NCBI GenBank assembly: GCA_902812415.1
Contig: CADDZJ010000017.1
Coordinates: forward strand, 1 to 55,459
Direction of reading: 5' to 3'
DNA from: Acidobacteriota bacterium
Lineage (GTDB): Bacteria > Acidobacteriota > Terriglobia > UBA7540
Length of the DNA: 55,459 nt
Below are positions 959 to 6,529 of the stretch, piece by piece. Position numbers and translations under genes: made by a program. How positions within the stretch are numbered: the stretch's first letter is position 1; the number at the start of each line of letters is the position of its first letter. The notes under the pieces were generated by a model. The model was not told where the DNA came from and searched no databases. It saw only the letters and a list, made by a program, of their open reading frames with translations.

Positions 959-1675
959 TTATATTTTTTCGCGGCAGTTCAGCAGCCCTATCCATCTTTC
1001 AAATACGCGCTTTCCAATGGCCTGAAGCTTGGGCAGGTATGTCTGCGCCTGGCGGCGAATCTCATCCCCGCTCAAGCCCTCCTCTTTTAGCTCGTCAGCG
1101 AATGTCCCGATCATGCCATCCAGAATTTCCGGCACGATCTCCATGTGAAAGAGAAACCCGTAGGCGTTCGCACCGTAGCGGAAAGCCTGGCACGCAGTAA
1201 GTTTGGAGGAAGCCAAGCTAATGGCGCCTTTCGGCGCGTCAAAAACATCCCCATGCCAGTGATAGGCCATAAATTCAGGATCGAGGTCTTTGAAAAGCGC
1301 GTCTTCAAAGGCTGACGCAGCCCAGATGACCGAATGCCAGCCGATCTCTTTTTGCCGCCCTTTTCTTACTTCAGCGCCCAGCGCAGCGGCCAGCAATTGG
1401 CTGCCCAGGCAGACGCCCAGAATGGGCTTCGATTCGCACAGGGCGCGTTCGATTAATCTCATCTCATCGCGCAAGAAGGGATATCGATCATGCTCGTAGA
1501 CGCCCATCGGGCCGCCCATGATCACAAGACCCTGCGCCTGGCTCAAGTCCGTCGGCACGGGCTCACCCGCCGGGGTGAGAATGGTTTCGAGAGCATATCC
1601 CCGGGATTCGAGCGCCTGGGCAATCAACCCCGGCTTTTCGCATTCCGCGTGTTGGAGCACGACGACTTTTCGCAT
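959..1675 (-). CDS. Class I glutamine amidotransferase (GMP-synthase-like GATase domain protein)
   Basis: A 238-residue stand-alone class I GATase. It has the nucleophile elbow GVCLGSQ with Cys89 and the catalytic pair His177 and Glu179 in FLFHMEI (usually FHPE). The oxyanion-strand motif VIMGGPMGVYE lies at about residues 51-61. Such proteins hydrolyse glutamine or act on gamma-glutamyl compounds in the cytosol; the size and the GGPMGVYE motif resemble GMP synthase-like or gamma-glutamyl-gamma-aminobutyrate-hydrolase-like orphans. No synthetase partner is adjacent, so the substrate is unknown. It is transcribed alone toward the decayed gene at the left edge. Confidence 0.75.
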   Translation of the reverse strand: MRKVVVLQHAECEKPGLIAQALESRGYALETILTPAGEPVPTDLSQAQGLVIMGGPMGVYEHDRYPFLRDEMRLIERALCESKPILGVCLGSQLLAAALGAEVRKGRQKEIGWHSVIWAASAFEDALFKDLDPEFMAYHWHGDVFDAPKGAISLASSKLTACQAFRYGANAYGFLFHMEIVPEILDGMIGTFADELKEEGLSGDEIRRQAQTYLPKLQAIGKRVFERWIGLLNCREKI

Positions 1676-1963
1676 GGTTCACCTTCGCGGGCCTGGGCGA
1701 TGAAGTATAGTGTCCCAGATAATTTTAACCACCCCCAACCCCTCCTTGATCTTGATATGGAGGGAGCCCTCTCACCCAATCCTCTCCTCTTTGGGGGGCC
1801 CGAGGCGGGGGAAGGTTGCCATAGCGGCGATGTCCCGCATGCCCGAGCAATTGAAAATAAAAACCGACGGTGGGGACACCGCCGCTACAACTCCATTTTC
1901 AGACAAGCTCTGAAGCTGCGTCTTGACAATCTGTTCTGGCCGACCCCGCACAAATAAGGCCCG
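1676..1963. other. Intergenic region with repeat fragments
   Basis: This region separates the amidotransferase start from the protoglobin stop. It contains pyrimidine-rich/G-rich sequence around 1733-1816 and a repeat half-copy at 1873-1890. Open frames across it have no homology that I recognise, and no promoter or terminator stands out. Confidence 0.4.
1873..1890 (+). repeat. Short dispersed repeat, copy 1 (18-nt core)
   Basis: The 18-nt core GGGACACCGCCGCTACAA occurs here and again, identically, at 3497-3514. Both copies are followed a few bases later by CATTTT. Here it is a half element without the long opposing arm seen in the second copy. Confidence 0.6.
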
Positions 1964-2569
1964 TTAGAAATCCCCGTCTTTGACGTAAGGCTGGCTCCAG
2001 AGCGTGATCTGGAGAATCACCGACTTGACCCAGGCCTGGTGCATTTTTTCAACGTCTTCAGCGCCATGCCCTTTCCTGGCCAAAAAAGGCTTCAGCGTAT
2101 AGGTAATCGGATAGATGAGAGTTAGAAGATATCGATAGTTGATGTTTTCGACGGACTCCACGCGATCGGTTTTGTTTTTGGCGCTGCGATGATGTCGAAG
2201 CCCGATCTCATATTGGTAGTCGAGCCATTTCTGGTCGTAGTTTGCAGCCGCTGTATCCAGAATCCATTGACCGAAGCGCTTGCGCACGGCCGCCAGGTAG
2301 TCTCCGTCGGGCTGGCCGTCTTTCTTTCGCGCGAAGTAGTGGAGCAAGTGCTTGTTGGCAGCCACAAAGCCATACCACACTTCCAAGACCTGCTCGACCT
2401 GATCCTTCAACACCTCGCCAGACATGCGCAGATACTTTACGTCCTCTTCGGTGAAAAGAACCGTTTGCTTCAGCAGGTCGAATTCCTGAAGCGTGATCGG
2501 CGATTTGTGAACCGCGTTGGTCCCATAAGTGTACCCGGCGATGGGTCCGGGAGTGGGCGTTTGACTCAT
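1964..2569 (-). CDS. Protoglobin (single-domain globin-coupled-sensor fold)
   Basis: A 201-residue single-domain protein closely resembling Methanosarcina protoglobin: GYTYG near the N-terminus, the B-helix WYGFV (Trp65-Tyr66), KRFGQWILDT with the distal Phe99, and YQYEIGLRHHR containing the expected proximal haem ligand His126. The C-terminus ends PYVKDGDF, as in the archaeal protein. Protoglobins bind haem and O2, CO or NO in the cytosol; no output domain is fused here. The ATG overlaps the TGA of the upstream MarR gene by 4 bp, so the two are translationally coupled. It could act as a gas scavenger or as the sensor partner of that regulator; the latter is inference. Confidence 0.92.
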   Translation of the reverse strand: MSQTPTPGPIAGYTYGTNAVHKSPITLQEFDLLKQTVLFTEEDVKYLRMSGEVLKDQVEQVLEVWYGFVAANKHLLHYFARKKDGQPDGDYLAAVRKRFGQWILDTAAANYDQKWLDYQYEIGLRHHRSAKNKTDRVESVENINYRYLLTLIYPITYTLKPFLARKGHGAEDVEKMHQAWVKSVILQITLWSQPYVKDGDF

Positions 2570-3273
2570 GATTTTCCTCCTTCTCGGCGTTGATTTTGGG
2601 TGTAAAGTCCGAGCTTCACCGTCGTTTGCCCGCGCGAGACCGCTTCCTGTGAAGCCGCCTCATAATCCGGGCATTCCAGCCGCAAATGGCGATCGCCAAA
2701 GGGCGCATCCACAAAATCACAATGGTGTGGCTTCTCGGGGTCCTGATGCACATGGGGCCGAAAGAAGCGGCAAGTGACGCACATGCGCGAAACTGGAATT
2801 TGCCCGCGCTCCTGCAGGCCGCGAATCATCTTAACGAGCGCGCGCAGGAAGACTCCCTGCTCCTCAGGGGAAAGCGTCTGAGCGGCTTCAAGCAAAAAGT
2901 CTGACCAGAGGGCGGCGCGCCGGGCGGCGCGTTTCCCACGGCTCGTCAGCCGGAGAAAAACCGCGCGCGCATCCTGCGCGCCGCGTTGCTTCGCAATCAG
3001 CCGCTTGGCCGTAAGAGCAGCCGCCGCATCGCTCGTCGTTGCGACGGTGAGAGCCAGCGCCGCCGCCGCGTCGGAAATGATTGTCTTTGCGCCTTGAGCC
3101 TCCCGCGTTTCGAGGAGGATCAGAATCTGCGCCTGAGTTGGCGTCAGCCCGCGCTGACCTGCCTTCTGCCAGGCCTGGCTGCGAATGGCCAGGCCGATTT
3201 TGTGAAGCCCTGTCGCGATGTGCTCTGAGGGGGACAGCAGCTCACTCTTCCGGGCAGATGACGCGGATTTCAT
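2566..3273 (-). CDS. MarR-family regulator with a Cys/His-rich C-terminal domain
   Basis: A 235-residue protein. Residues ~15-150 are a MarR-type winged helix with a Gln/Ala-rich recognition region (SDAAAALALTVATTSDAAAAL) and the RGAQDARAVFLRLT wing. A C-terminal extension of ~70 residues carries Cys165-X2-Cys168, His174, His176, His183-184, Cys185 and Cys201, suited to a Zn or Fe-S site. Ordinary MarR proteins are ~140-160 residues and lack this tail. It is the first gene of an overlapping pair with the protoglobin. A perfect dyad begins 2 bp upstream of its ATG, so autoregulation is likely. No Shine-Dalgarno is visible before ATG 3273, so the mRNA may be leaderless. A gas, redox or metal signal is inference. 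Confidence 0.85.
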   Translation of the reverse strand: MKSASSARKSELLSPSEHIATGLHKIGLAIRSQAWQKAGQRGLTPTQAQILILLETREAQGAKTIISDAAAALALTVATTSDAAAALTAKRLIAKQRGAQDARAVFLRLTSRGKRAARRAALWSDFLLEAAQTLSPEEQGVFLRALVKMIRGLQERGQIPVSRMCVTCRFFRPHVHQDPEKPHHCDFVDAPFGDRHLRLECPDYEAASQEAVSRGQTTVKLGLYTQNQRREGGKS

Positions 3274-3274
3274 A

Positions 3275-3295
3275 ATATTTAGGAGTTCTAAATAT
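3275..3295 (-). promoter_or_regulatory. Palindromic operator upstream of the MarR/protoglobin operon
   Basis: The perfect 8-bp inverted repeat ATATTTAG-GAGTT-CTAAATAT ends 2 bp from the MarR start codon, in a very AT-rich stretch that must also hold the promoter. Its length and position are typical of a MarR dimer operator used for autorepression. Confidence 0.7.
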
Positions 3296-3343
3296 ATTAC
3301 ATTCGCGTGCGGCGGTCAACTTTATATCTTCTCTTGACCCTTT

Positions 3344-3391
3344 GTGGCACAGCCGTCTCGGCCGTGGGCACGGGCGGGACGCCCGTGCCAC
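3344..3391. repeat. Double-hairpin REP-like element
   Basis: Two consecutive dyads are nested inside an outer one. CACAGCCG-TCT-CGGCCGTG (3348-3366) has one mismatch. GGCACGGGCG-GGA-CGCCCGTGCC (3367-3389) is perfect over 10 bp. The whole element is bounded by GTGGCAC and GTGCCAC. This layout matches palindromic intergenic repeats scattered in several environmental phyla. It lies between the MarR promoter and the thiO-like gene. Confidence 0.7.
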
Positions 3392-3583: not shown

Positions 3584-4798
3584 ATGGTCTTTAACAAGGA
3601 AACGCATGACGTCATCGTGATTGGCGGCGGCTTGATCGGCTGCTCCATCGCGCTGCGGCTGGCGCAACAGAAGATTCGGGTGAGCGTTTTCGACCAGGGG
3701 AAGCCCGGAGCGGAGGCCAGCAGCGCCGGCGCCGGCATGATTGCGCCGCAAGGCGAGACCACCCAACCCGACCCTTTTTATGAACTTTGCGCGGCAAGCC
3801 GCGATCTTTACGCGGATTTTGTCGCAGAGATTGAAGAATTGAGCGGCCGCAAAGTGGGGTTGCGGCGAGAAGGCACGCTGATGGCGGCGCTCGATGAGAC
3901 CCAGCGGCATGGCCTTCAGAAAATCCACGAAGCACAAACGAAAGCCGGACTGAAGGTTGAGCGCCTCTCGCCCGAGGAGGCGCGCAAACGCTCGCCTCAG
4001 CTTTCAAGCCAAATCCGTGAAGCCCTTTTCATCCCCGAAGACTATTGGATTGACAATGTGCGGCTGATGGAGGCGCTGGAACAAGCCTGCCTGAGAGCTG
4101 GAGTCAGCTTCTATCCTCACGCCAAGGTCACTCGGCTGATCACCTCAAATGGGGAGGTTGAGAGCGTTGAATCCTGTGCGGAGCCAAGCTCCGTTCCCTT
4201 CCATCACGCGGCTGGGCAGTTCGTTTTGGCGGCGGGCGCCTGGTCCGGGAAAATTGCCTCAACACTCGGCATTTCGCTACCGGTCAAGCCTTGCCGCGGA
4301 CAGATGATGGAGTTTGAGGGCGCAACGGATTTTCCCTTTGTCCTGCGGGCTGCCCATCATTATCTGGTGCCCCGGTCAGGAGGAAGAGTCATTGCGGGAA
4401 GCACCATGGAATATGCAGGCTTCGAGAAGGCTGTGACGGGCGAGGGATTAAGAAGCATTCTGAAAGGCGCCGTTCGGATAGCGCCGATGGTGAAGGAACT
4501 CCGCTTCCGCGCTGCATGGTCAGGATTGAGACCCGACACCGAAGATCACTTGCCGATCCTCGGATACGGAGAAATAACCAACTTGGTTTTTGCCACCGGG
4601 CATTTTCGCAACGGAATTTTGCTGACGCCCATTACAGCGCAATTGATTTCCGAGCTGATTTTGCAAGGCTCCGCTTCAAGACCCATGGAGATCTACTCGC
4701 CCGCGAGATTCCATTTGAGCCGCTCACGCGTGCCGAGCCACATAGAGCAGCAGCGCAAAAATCACCACCGGGATCATCGCCAGCAAAAAATAGAATAA
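3584..4798 (+). CDS. thiO: Glycine oxidase ThiO-like FAD-dependent amine oxidase
   Basis: A DAO-family flavoenzyme of about 404 residues. The N-terminal Rossmann motif VIVIGGGLIGCSIALRLA binds FAD and is followed by a GAEASSAGAGMIAPQ segment. The C-terminal half has WSGLRPDTEDHLPILG and ATGHFRNGILLTP, typical of glycine oxidase. ThiO oxidises glycine to iminoacetate for thiazole synthesis, but no other thiamine gene is nearby, so an alternative D- or secondary-amino-acid oxidase role remains open. ATG 3584 is chosen over the preceding TTG. The last ~25 codons extend beyond the usual family end (SPARF) and lie antisense to the end of the convergent kinase gene over 75 bp. Confidence 0.85.
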   Translation: MVFNKETHDVIVIGGGLIGCSIALRLAQQKIRVSVFDQGKPGAEASSAGAGMIAPQGETTQPDPFYELCAASRDLYADFVAEIEELSGRKVGLRREGTLMAALDETQRHGLQKIHEAQTKAGLKVERLSPEEARKRSPQLSSQIREALFIPEDYWIDNVRLMEALEQACLRAGVSFYPHAKVTRLITSNGEVESVESCAEPSSVPFHHAAGQFVLAAGAWSGKIASTLGISLPVKPCRGQMMEFEGATDFPFVLRAAHHYLVPRSGGRVIAGSTMEYAGFEKAVTGEGLRSILKGAVRIAPMVKELRFRAAWSGLRPDTEDHLPILGYGEITNLVFATGHFRNGILLTPITAQLISELILQGSASRPMEIYSPARFHLSRSRVPSHIEQQRKNHHRDHRQQKIE

Positions 4799-5692
4799 GA
4801 CCCTTCGCGCCCATGGCGACCGTCGTTGTTTCCAGTCGCGGAGCTCAGGACGGTCGGCCACCCCGACCTGGTCCTGATGCTCAAGGTCCCAGGCAAACTC
4901 GCGGGCGCTGGCGTAGCGCTTTCGGGGGTCGCGCTCCAGAGCGCGATAGATAATTTCCTGAAGCTGAGGAGAAATGGCAGGATCAATCTCGCGCGGCGGA
5001 ACGGGATTGTTCAGCAACCTGTCGTTCATAATGGCGAAAGGATTCGGCCCCTGGAACGGCGCTTTGCCGGTCAGCATTTCATAAAGCATGGCCCCCAGGG
5101 CATACAGGTCGCTGCGCGCATCGCCGCGTTTTCCTTTGACCTGTTCGGGGGAGATGTAATCCGGCGAGCCCATAATCTGGGAGATTTTGGCAAAGGTCAA
5201 CCGGCGCGATCCAGCGTTGCCGGCAATTCCGAAATCGATGATCTTAATGTGGTCGTCGGCATCCACCATGATGTTTTCAGGCTTCAGATCGCGGTGAACC
5301 ACTCCGTGGCTGTGGATATAATCAAGCGCATCACAGATGCTGAGCGCGATGCGCACGGCGCGCTCGGGGGAAAACTTGCGTTGCTCGTTCAAAATCTGGC
5401 GCAGCAAGCGGCCCTCAGCCCATTCCATCACCATATAGAGCCGGCTGCGATCGTCGTCGGCAAAGACCTTCACCACCCCGGGATGATCCAGCTTTTTGCC
5501 AATCGCCGCCTCGCGCTCGAAGCGCTCGTAGAAAACCGGATCGCTCTCCATTTCAGGGTGCGGAACCTTGATGGCAACCGGTCGGCCCGTGCGCAAGTCC
5601 GTGCCGCGAAAGATCGAGGCCATGCCGCTGCGGGCTGCAACGCCTTCAATGCGGTAGTGATCAAGTTGGTCGCCAGGATGAAGCGGAGTCAT
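4724..5692 (-). CDS. Membrane-anchored Hanks-type serine/threonine kinase
   Basis: A 322-residue kinase: a Gly-loop with the relaxed spacing GVAARSGMASIF, Lys42 in VAIKVPHP, the catalytic loop HRDLKPEN (Asp135), DFG (Asp153) and SPDYISPEQ as the activation-segment end. After the catalytic domain a basic linker leads to a single C-terminal membrane helix (about 297-317). No PASTA or other sensor domain follows, so only ~5 residues would lie outside the membrane. The PP2C phosphatase gene ends 45 bp upstream on the same strand, giving a kinase/phosphatase pair. Its 3' end overlaps the thiO-like gene. Confidence 0.93.
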   Translation of the reverse strand: MTPLHPGDQLDHYRIEGVAARSGMASIFRGTDLRTGRPVAIKVPHPEMESDPVFYERFEREAAIGKKLDHPGVVKVFADDDRSRLYMVMEWAEGRLLRQILNEQRKFSPERAVRIALSICDALDYIHSHGVVHRDLKPENIMVDADDHIKIIDFGIAGNAGSRRLTFAKISQIMGSPDYISPEQVKGKRGDARSDLYALGAMLYEMLTGKAPFQGPNPFAIMNDRLLNNPVPPREIDPAISPQLQEIIYRALERDPRKRYASAREFAWDLEHQDQVGVADRPELRDWKQRRSPWARRVLFYFLLAMIPVVIFALLLYVARHA

Positions 5693-5737
5693 TGCCCGGT
5701 CGGGGTCAAACGGCGGGAAACCGGCGGCGTGGCTGAA

Positions 5738-6529
5738 TCAGCGAAGCTTATACGGGCGCCCGCGGTACATGCCCATGCGCTCGACGTTTCGAACACGGAT
5801 GAGCTGAACACTGATATTATCGCTGCCATCCCGTTGGTTGGCAAGTTCCAGAAGCTTCTCGGCTGCGTCAACCAGGGTGTTCGTCTCGCTGACGGCGCGG
5901 GCCATTTCCTGGGCTGTAACCGACCCGTGCAGCCCGTCAGAGCAAAGCAGGAGCACATCGCCGGCCGTCACCTGATTTTCAGCCACATCGGCGGCAACAA
6001 ACAATCCGCTGCCCAGAGAGCGGCTTAGAACGTGGCGGGTAGCGGCGTGGGCGGCGTCTTCGGCAGAGATCAGTCCCATGCGCGCCTGTTCGTCCACCAG
6101 GGTATGATCGCGGGTCAGCGCAGTGGCGCGATTGCGCCGAATCAGGTAACACCGCGAATCTCCCACATGAGCCACCACCACCCGGTCAAAGCGCAGCGCG
6201 CAGGCAACAAGGGTTGTAGCAATGGCCGCGCCGCTGGCGAGTCCGGCATCGACCACGCGGGCGTTGGCCGTCTGCACCAGGCGCGGCAATAACGCCGCGT
6301 GCGGCTCCCGGACGCTCGATTCCCGAAAGCCCGCCAGCAGAGTCTCAACAGCGATGCGCGCCGCCACCTCACCCTGCTGTTGGCCGCCGACGCCGTCCGC
6401 TAAGGCAAAGAGCCAGCCGTGAGCGCGCGCCTGCGCGGGCGTCGCAGGAAGCAGATAACCGAGATAGTCCTCGTTCTGCTCACGCGTTCGCCCAGGGTCA
6501 GAGAGCTGTGTAAACTCCAAATCCAACAT
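5738..6529 (-). CDS. PP2C-family protein serine/threonine phosphatase
   Basis: A 263-residue cytosolic PP2C with all hallmark motifs: SDPGRTREQNED, LFALADGVGG, VAHVGDSRCYL, LTRDHTLVDEQ, LLCSDGLHG and DGSDNISV, which supply the metal-binding aspartates. It is the first gene of a two-gene unit with the membrane kinase and should reverse phosphorylation by that kinase. Starting at ATG 6529 gives a full-length domain with no extra regulatory module. Confidence 0.94.
   Translation of the reverse strand: MLDLEFTQLSDPGRTREQNEDYLGYLLPATPAQARAHGWLFALADGVGGQQQGEVAARIAVETLLAGFRESSVREPHAALLPRLVQTANARVVDAGLASGAAIATTLVACALRFDRVVVAHVGDSRCYLIRRNRATALTRDHTLVDEQARMGLISAEDAAHAATRHVLSRSLGSGLFVAADVAENQVTAGDVLLLCSDGLHGSVTAQEMARAVSETNTLVDAAEKLLELANQRDGSDNISVQLIRVRNVERMGMYRGRPYKLR

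Follow-up and report, generated by a model that had tools for sequence, protein, structure and literature searches.

The window (the whole 55,459-nt stretch of DNA that was analysed) comes from a metagenome-assembled genome of 4.84 Mb in 261 contigs, whose nearest relatives are Acidobacteria, and carries a gene for a MarR-family regulator followed on the same strand by a gene for a protoglobin (Table 1). The two frames overlap by 4 bp (ATGA, 2566–2569), as the preliminary description had stated, and an AGGAGG sequence stands 6 nt 5′ of the protoglobin ATG. The marR gene lacks a Shine–Dalgarno sequence and its start codon abuts the operator described below, so its message is probably leaderless or nearly so. 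The gene that lies beyond the terminator-like hairpin, for a class-I glutamine amidotransferase, is a possible accessory member of the system. Elsewhere in the window, a Ser/Thr kinase gene adjoins a PP2C phosphatase gene (4724–6529, minus strand), an ordinary arrangement.

Table 1. Features of the marR–protoglobin locus, with positions in the window.
Feature	Position	Strand	Description
marR	2566–3273	-	Winged-helix regulator of the MarR family, 235 aa, carrying a C-terminal four-Cys domain
Protoglobin gene	1964–2569	-	Single-domain protoglobin, 201 aa; Pfam Protoglobin and PDB 2veb alignment
Four-Cys domain of MarR	2671–2781	-	C165-x2-C168-x16-C185-x15-C201 with PHH182–184
Shine–Dalgarno AGGAGG of the protoglobin gene	2576–2581	-	Inside the 3′ end of marR; retained in homologous operons
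Sigma-70-like promoter of the marR–protoglobin operon	3291–3319	-	TTGACC-17-TATATT, 10/12 matches; -10 overlaps the operator
Predicted operator	3273–3297		25-bp weight-matrix match, 26.9 bits
Terminator-like hairpin 3′ of the protoglobin gene	1865–1884	-	8 pairs, T-rich tail
Class-I glutamine amidotransferase gene	959–1675	-	Downstream of the terminator-like hairpin

The predicted protoglobin matches Pfam PF11563 as a single domain (112.1 bits; cut-off, 25) and resembles the protoglobin of Methanosarcina acetivorans (MaPgb; PDB 2veb) over nearly its full length, with residues 10–201 (to its end) aligned (E = 4 × 10−81) and key haem-pocket residues shared. W65/Y66, F99 and the proximal H126 correspond in this alignment to W60/Y61, F93 and H120 of MaPgb, in which Trp60, Tyr61 and Phe93 form the distal set and His120 is the proximal residue (PMC3680402); the position of MaPgb Cys101(E20), Ser in the crystallised MaPgb mutant, is Ala in the window protein. 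The window gene, the only protoglobin gene found in its genome, further differs from that of M. acetivorans in belonging to a bacterium and in sharing an operon with a regulator. MaPgb binds O2, CO and NO (PMC3680402) and isomerises peroxynitrite (PMC4020757), and its biological role has been called 'still unknown' (PMC3680402). With a conserved regulator and operator standing before protoglobins, the signal that releases the regulator would be a strong clue to the purpose of the globin.

The body of the regulator matches Pfam MarR_2 at 29.2 bits (cut-off, 27), and the best fold matches of its AF2 model were MepR (TM 0.83 by target, E = 1.4 × 10−6) and ST1710, with the haem sensor PefR also among the matches; scans of Pfam and NCBIfam returned no model dedicated to this regulator. 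Its tail carries exactly the C-x2-C-x16-C-x15-C motif that the preliminary description had read from the sequence. The histidines claimed for the same region are present in the window protein (HH183–184) but are less general than the cysteines, the PHH triplet being lost in short-form homologues. Model confidence for the four-Cys domain was modest (pLDDT about 60–80), and searches with the tail alone gave chance matches or none, with no relative in Pfam or the PDB. The C-x2-C-x16-C spacing, similar to that of HiPIP, raised the idea of a HiPIP origin, which was rejected: hhalign gave a probability of 2.7% with the CxxC stretch alone aligned (against a HiPIP profile of only 3 sequences), the GWC that is invariant at the fourth Cys in the three HiPIPs fetched is absent from the tail, and no HiPIP was found in 149 sampled genomes of the window's phylum.

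Homologous loci were gathered along four routes. A protein search made without the Cys motif, covering 61 related genomes plus plasmids, recovered homologues in Acidobacteria, Nostoc, Sphingomonas, Paraburkholderia, Ensifer and Deinococcus. Peptide patterns around the cysteines, run against 85,000 species genomes, gave 504 relatives, and 80 of these loci were retained. Two loci (Hymenobacter and Agarilytica) were reached via protoglobin alone, and a profile applied to 297 genomes from the window's phylum found 16 carriers, the window among them (15 beyond it). Regulator, tail and operator together recur before globin and redox genes in at least 16 bacterial phyla.

The added Cys domain proved real, and the conservation on which that claim depended was borne out: all four cysteines are present in every homologue inspected, invariant across 92 loci (partly by construction among the 80 scanned loci, since the scan patterns surrounded the Cys) and likewise across the 16 phylum carriers and 2 other loci, which were found without the Cys motif as a search pattern. 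The spacing in the main set is C-x2-C-x16-C-x15-C with one exception, in which the middle spacer is x15; in distant members the middle spacer shortens to 10–13 and the PHH before the third Cys is absent, while the final spacer remains at about 15. No other part of the protein is as well conserved as the tail, in which the cysteines are invariant and PHH and FGDxxLRLDC nearly so. In 65 of the 92 loci, the window's included, the MarR body has no Cys before the tail, which leaves the tail as the only possible thiol site in those proteins.

The perfect 8-bp dyad that had been reported to touch the regulator start was recovered at 3275–3295 (ATATTTAG-gagtt-CTAAATAT), 1 bp before the marR ATG. Perfect 8-bp dyads number 20 in the window (about one per 2.8 kb; only 3 are AT-rich), so such a dyad alone is weak evidence, and it is conservation across loci that raises this one above chance. 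The upstream regions of homologues share a palindrome with the core TTAGGA-S-TCCTAA, found with up to three mismatches in 52 of 91 loci (counted over the 150 bp upstream of the marR frame and its first 45 bp), compared with about 2–3 in shuffles or control windows. A matrix of the form TATnnTTAGGASTCCTAAnnATA, trained on 51 of these same loci, placed a site in 84 of 92 loci versus 0–1 of 92 dinucleotide-shuffled loci; many of the loci added by the matrix were cyanobacterial operons led by a gene other than marR, and in such operons the operator lies at the operon head. In the phylum sample, which was collected blind to the operator and serves as a near-independent test, every one of the 16 loci had a site scoring ≥14 bits, and in 14 loci the score reached about 17 bits or more (≥16.9). 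Within the window, the core TTAGGAGTTCTAA (3279–3291) is a one-mismatch copy of TTAGGASTCCTAA, from which the true operator would be the whole ~21–25 bp. The claim that the regulator has an operator of its own thus finds support in a conserved palindrome over the predicted promoter, and a palindromic operator at its own promoter is consistent with its assignment to the MarR family.

The operator appears to be highly local. Genomes that were searched whole contained at most two sites with one mismatch or fewer, mostly a single one, at the marR locus, and in the window's own genome the operator scored 26.9 bits and the next candidate 15.3. As the only strong site in most genomes searched, the operator points to a local, autoregulated switch. 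The second candidate (C239), downstream of a homoserine-kinase-like gene, is the only other one-mismatch site in that genome; we considered it as a further regulon member and set it aside as probably a chance match. In operons not headed by marR, it lies before protoglobin genes (L022, L038, L046 and L097, directly before in L038 and L097), before a globin gene (L021) or before a gene for a secreted protein (L027), and in one further genome (G279, locus L133) it stands directly before a protoglobin gene with marR 1.4 kb away. Another perfect dyad in the window, of 10 bp (3367–3389; GGCACGGGCG-GGA-CGCCCGTGCC), belongs to a dispersed palindrome that occurs several dozen times in the genome (up to 2 mismatches).

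Adjacency of the two genes, the other relationship that had been proposed, holds well beyond the window. Protoglobin genes share the operon of the regulator in 26 of 92 loci, a proportion that is not a population frequency because similarity to a protoglobin-linked query was the basis for ranking the 80 scanned loci; the 26 loci span 10 phyla (Acidobacteriota, Planctomycetota, Chloroflexota, Cyanobacteriota, Pseudomonadota, Actinomycetota, Deinococcota, Binatota, Poribacteria and Bacillota); Bacteroidota also pair a protoglobin with the regulator, in its short form. All 26 protoglobin loci carry an operator site, and in six loci (L019, L029, L036, L048, L065 and L067) marR is followed by protoglobin with a 1–8-bp overlap and a strong ribosome-binding site. 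Among the 16 unselected phylum carriers, a protoglobin gene lies within 1.5 kb in the window alone; in G279, the protoglobin gene, at about 1.4 kb from marR, falls partly inside the stretch fetched around marR. When 'protoglobin' is mapped as a label onto a maximum-likelihood tree of the regulator, 13 changes are needed, compared with 22.8 expected with shuffled labels, and at least 6 of the 13 are forced by supported branches, indicating repeated gain or loss of the pairing with regulator and operator retained throughout. In the nearest relative (L018, 7001–8311), a single open frame of 436 codons covers both marR and protoglobin and keeps an internal ribosome-binding site, either a natural fusion or a slip of assembly or sequencing.

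Tabulating the neighbours, as the preliminary description had proposed, showed protoglobin to be one of several partners. Across the 92 loci, in which genes were taken as mechanical open reading frames, the regulator was accompanied by a secreted protein of ~240 aa (30 loci), protoglobin (26), glutamine amidotransferase (19, the window's among them), TlpA/redoxin (16), single-domain globin (13–16), MOSC (10), small thioredoxin (9), Tpx (6) and CMD/AhpD-like proteins (6), and catalase, SOD and one truncated haemoglobin were also seen. The glutamine amidotransferase homologues adjoin the regulator in cyanobacteria and alphaproteobacteria.

At the level of sequence, these comparisons establish the genes, their operon layout, the operator, the conservation of the cysteines and the recurrent linkage. 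On how the parts work together, we think it probable that the regulator is an autoregulated repressor with an Fe–S (or Zn) four-Cys sensor, released by NO or an oxidant, that controls a gas-detoxifying protoglobin. Under this model, marR and the protoglobin gene would form an autoregulated operon in which a dimer of the four-Cys MarR sits on TATnnTTAGGASTCCTAAnnATA over the promoter and holds both genes off, a repressing role being suggested by the position of the operator over the promoter. The C-terminal four-Cys domain would be the sensor, with cysteines that most likely hold an Fe–S cluster and less likely Zn; NO or an oxidant would damage the cluster and cause the repressor to release the DNA, and the protoglobin then made would remove the reactive gas, by NO dioxygenation or peroxynitrite isomerisation, until repression resumes. 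In other bacteria, the same regulator–operator module would drive other globins and thiol-redox proteins.

Precedents for such a switch exist among described regulators. NsrR is a local Fe–S repressor of an NO-detoxifying globin gene (hmp) and belongs to the Rrf2 family, not to MarR; the window system may work like NsrR–hmp by analogy, and Pfam and NCBIfam scans gave no Rrf2 match for its regulator. ArnR of Corynebacterium is a MarR/ArsR-like winged-helix protein with a C-terminal [4Fe–4S] site; it acts as a repressor of the flavohaemoglobin gene hmp, and NO abolishes its DNA binding (PMC12343034). By analogy, the two would share a MarR-type winged helix, a C-terminal Cys domain and control of a globin gene. 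ArnR has three cysteines (179, 193 and 223) with other spacing, however, whereas the window regulator type has four (C-x2-C-x10–16-C-x15-C), a comparison made from the published Cys spacing (PMC12343034); ArnR is also almost restricted to Actinobacteria and controls narKGHJI, whereas the window type, found in at least 16 phyla, has an operator of its own and mostly a single, local target. ChlR, a cyanobacterial MarR-type O2 sensor with a [4Fe–4S] cluster, carries N-terminal C18/C25, serves at low O2 as an activator of tetrapyrrole genes and has TTMCC-N3/4-GGWAA as its binding site (PMC13421787). ChlR and the window regulator are alike in MarR type and in having a palindromic operator, and the redox site of ChlR is likewise made of Cys; the window regulator differs in its C-terminal cysteines, with no Cys before C165 and hence no N-terminal pair of the ChlR type, and in its operator, TTAGGASTCCTAA. 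Given the precedents of ChlR and ArnR and the chemistry of MaPgb, a local repressor of a gas-detoxifying globin, released by NO or an oxidant, appears the likeliest reading.

The nature of the signal is where other readings enter. The redox neighbours fit NO, O2, peroxide or thiol stress alike and do not single out NO; the Tpx, thioredoxin and redoxin neighbours in particular point as much to peroxide or thiol stress, and the four-Cys site may equally be a structural Zn site, a regulatory Zn site or a disulfide switch. On account of these thiol-enzyme neighbours, the main rival is a thiol/Zn redox switch, in which the four cysteines bind Zn and oxidation or persulfidation ejects it; in place of NO, the signal would then be peroxide, hypochlorite, sulfane sulfur or thiol stress, and the protoglobin would be one induced stress protein of several. 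Many loci do encode thiol enzymes (Tpx, thioredoxin-like, TlpA/redoxin and CMD/AhpD-like proteins) and also catalase, four-Cys sites readily bind Zn, and oxygenic cyanobacteria are among the carriers, as are other bacteria that are presumably aerobic. However, the recurrence of two globin folds (protoglobin, and the single-domain globins with one truncated haemoglobin) is better explained by a gaseous ligand, and membership of the Zn-dependent AdcR/ZitR group of MarR proteins is not indicated, the match to NCBIfam NF038251 (28.7 bits) falling under the cut-off of 175, so that we regard such a switch as possible and rather unlikely.

Considerably more doubtful is a purely structural Zn fold for the four-Cys domain, with the signal being a ligand of the MarR pocket (a phenolic, a quinone or haem) and the protoglobin handling a product of the chemistry of that ligand. 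Small ligands of a phenolic or lipophilic kind are usual for MarR proteins, and the best matches of the predicted fold are ligand-binding MarRs of the MepR/ST1710 type, along with PefR; yet the tail is conserved more strongly than any other part of the protein, which would be unusual for a purely structural addition, and the neighbours are redox genes rather than efflux or aromatic-degradation genes. Coincidental gene order with a chance palindrome, for which the frequency of perfect 8-bp dyads in the window might speak, is extremely improbable given an operator in 84 of 92 loci where 0–1 are expected, its presence in all 16 loci of the operator-blind sample and protoglobin linkage that was repeated independently on the tree.

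We found no description, in the open-licence literature, of the operator, of a MarR–protoglobin pairing or of a MarR protein with this C-terminal Cys domain, and together the results suggest that a control circuit for gas or oxidant stress, previously undescribed, is widely shared. Whether the locally acting, NO- or oxidant-released repressor belongs to a cross-phylum redox/NO sensing system, with a four-Cys Fe–S MarR, a near-universal operator, a range of at least 16 phyla and exchangeable haem or thiol effectors, we judge to be an evenly balanced question; if it does, the system would provide a physiological setting for bacterial protoglobins, with protoglobin among its commonest effectors. 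The sharpness of the operator (one or two sites per genome, mostly at its own locus) makes it usable for finding members of the system, including the secreted family.

That family of ~240-aa proteins is the commonest partner of the four-Cys MarR and has no Pfam entry. Its members (L014, 4651–5367; L032, 7652–8413; L088, 5507–6247; and others) carry the motif HPDFDDTPLWDENxDGNYxNDGxxWHSHWVVL, and their predicted fold matched 2ivf_C (the haem-binding ethylbenzene dehydrogenase gamma subunit; Z = 7.4), the Nxr subunit 7b04_O (Z = 6.8) and CBM9, in a list mixed with antibody domains and lying wholly under the trust level advised for the tool. Protoglobin genes also occur beside regulators of another kind: in three loci (L131, L132 and L140), one of them on a haloarchaeal plasmid, they adjoin HxlR-like regulators, not MarR, as assigned by eye. 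The Hymenobacter protoglobin locus (L138, 2639–2893) brings together catalase, a hexameric tyrosine-coordinated haem protein, MOSC and a short-form four-Cys MarR.
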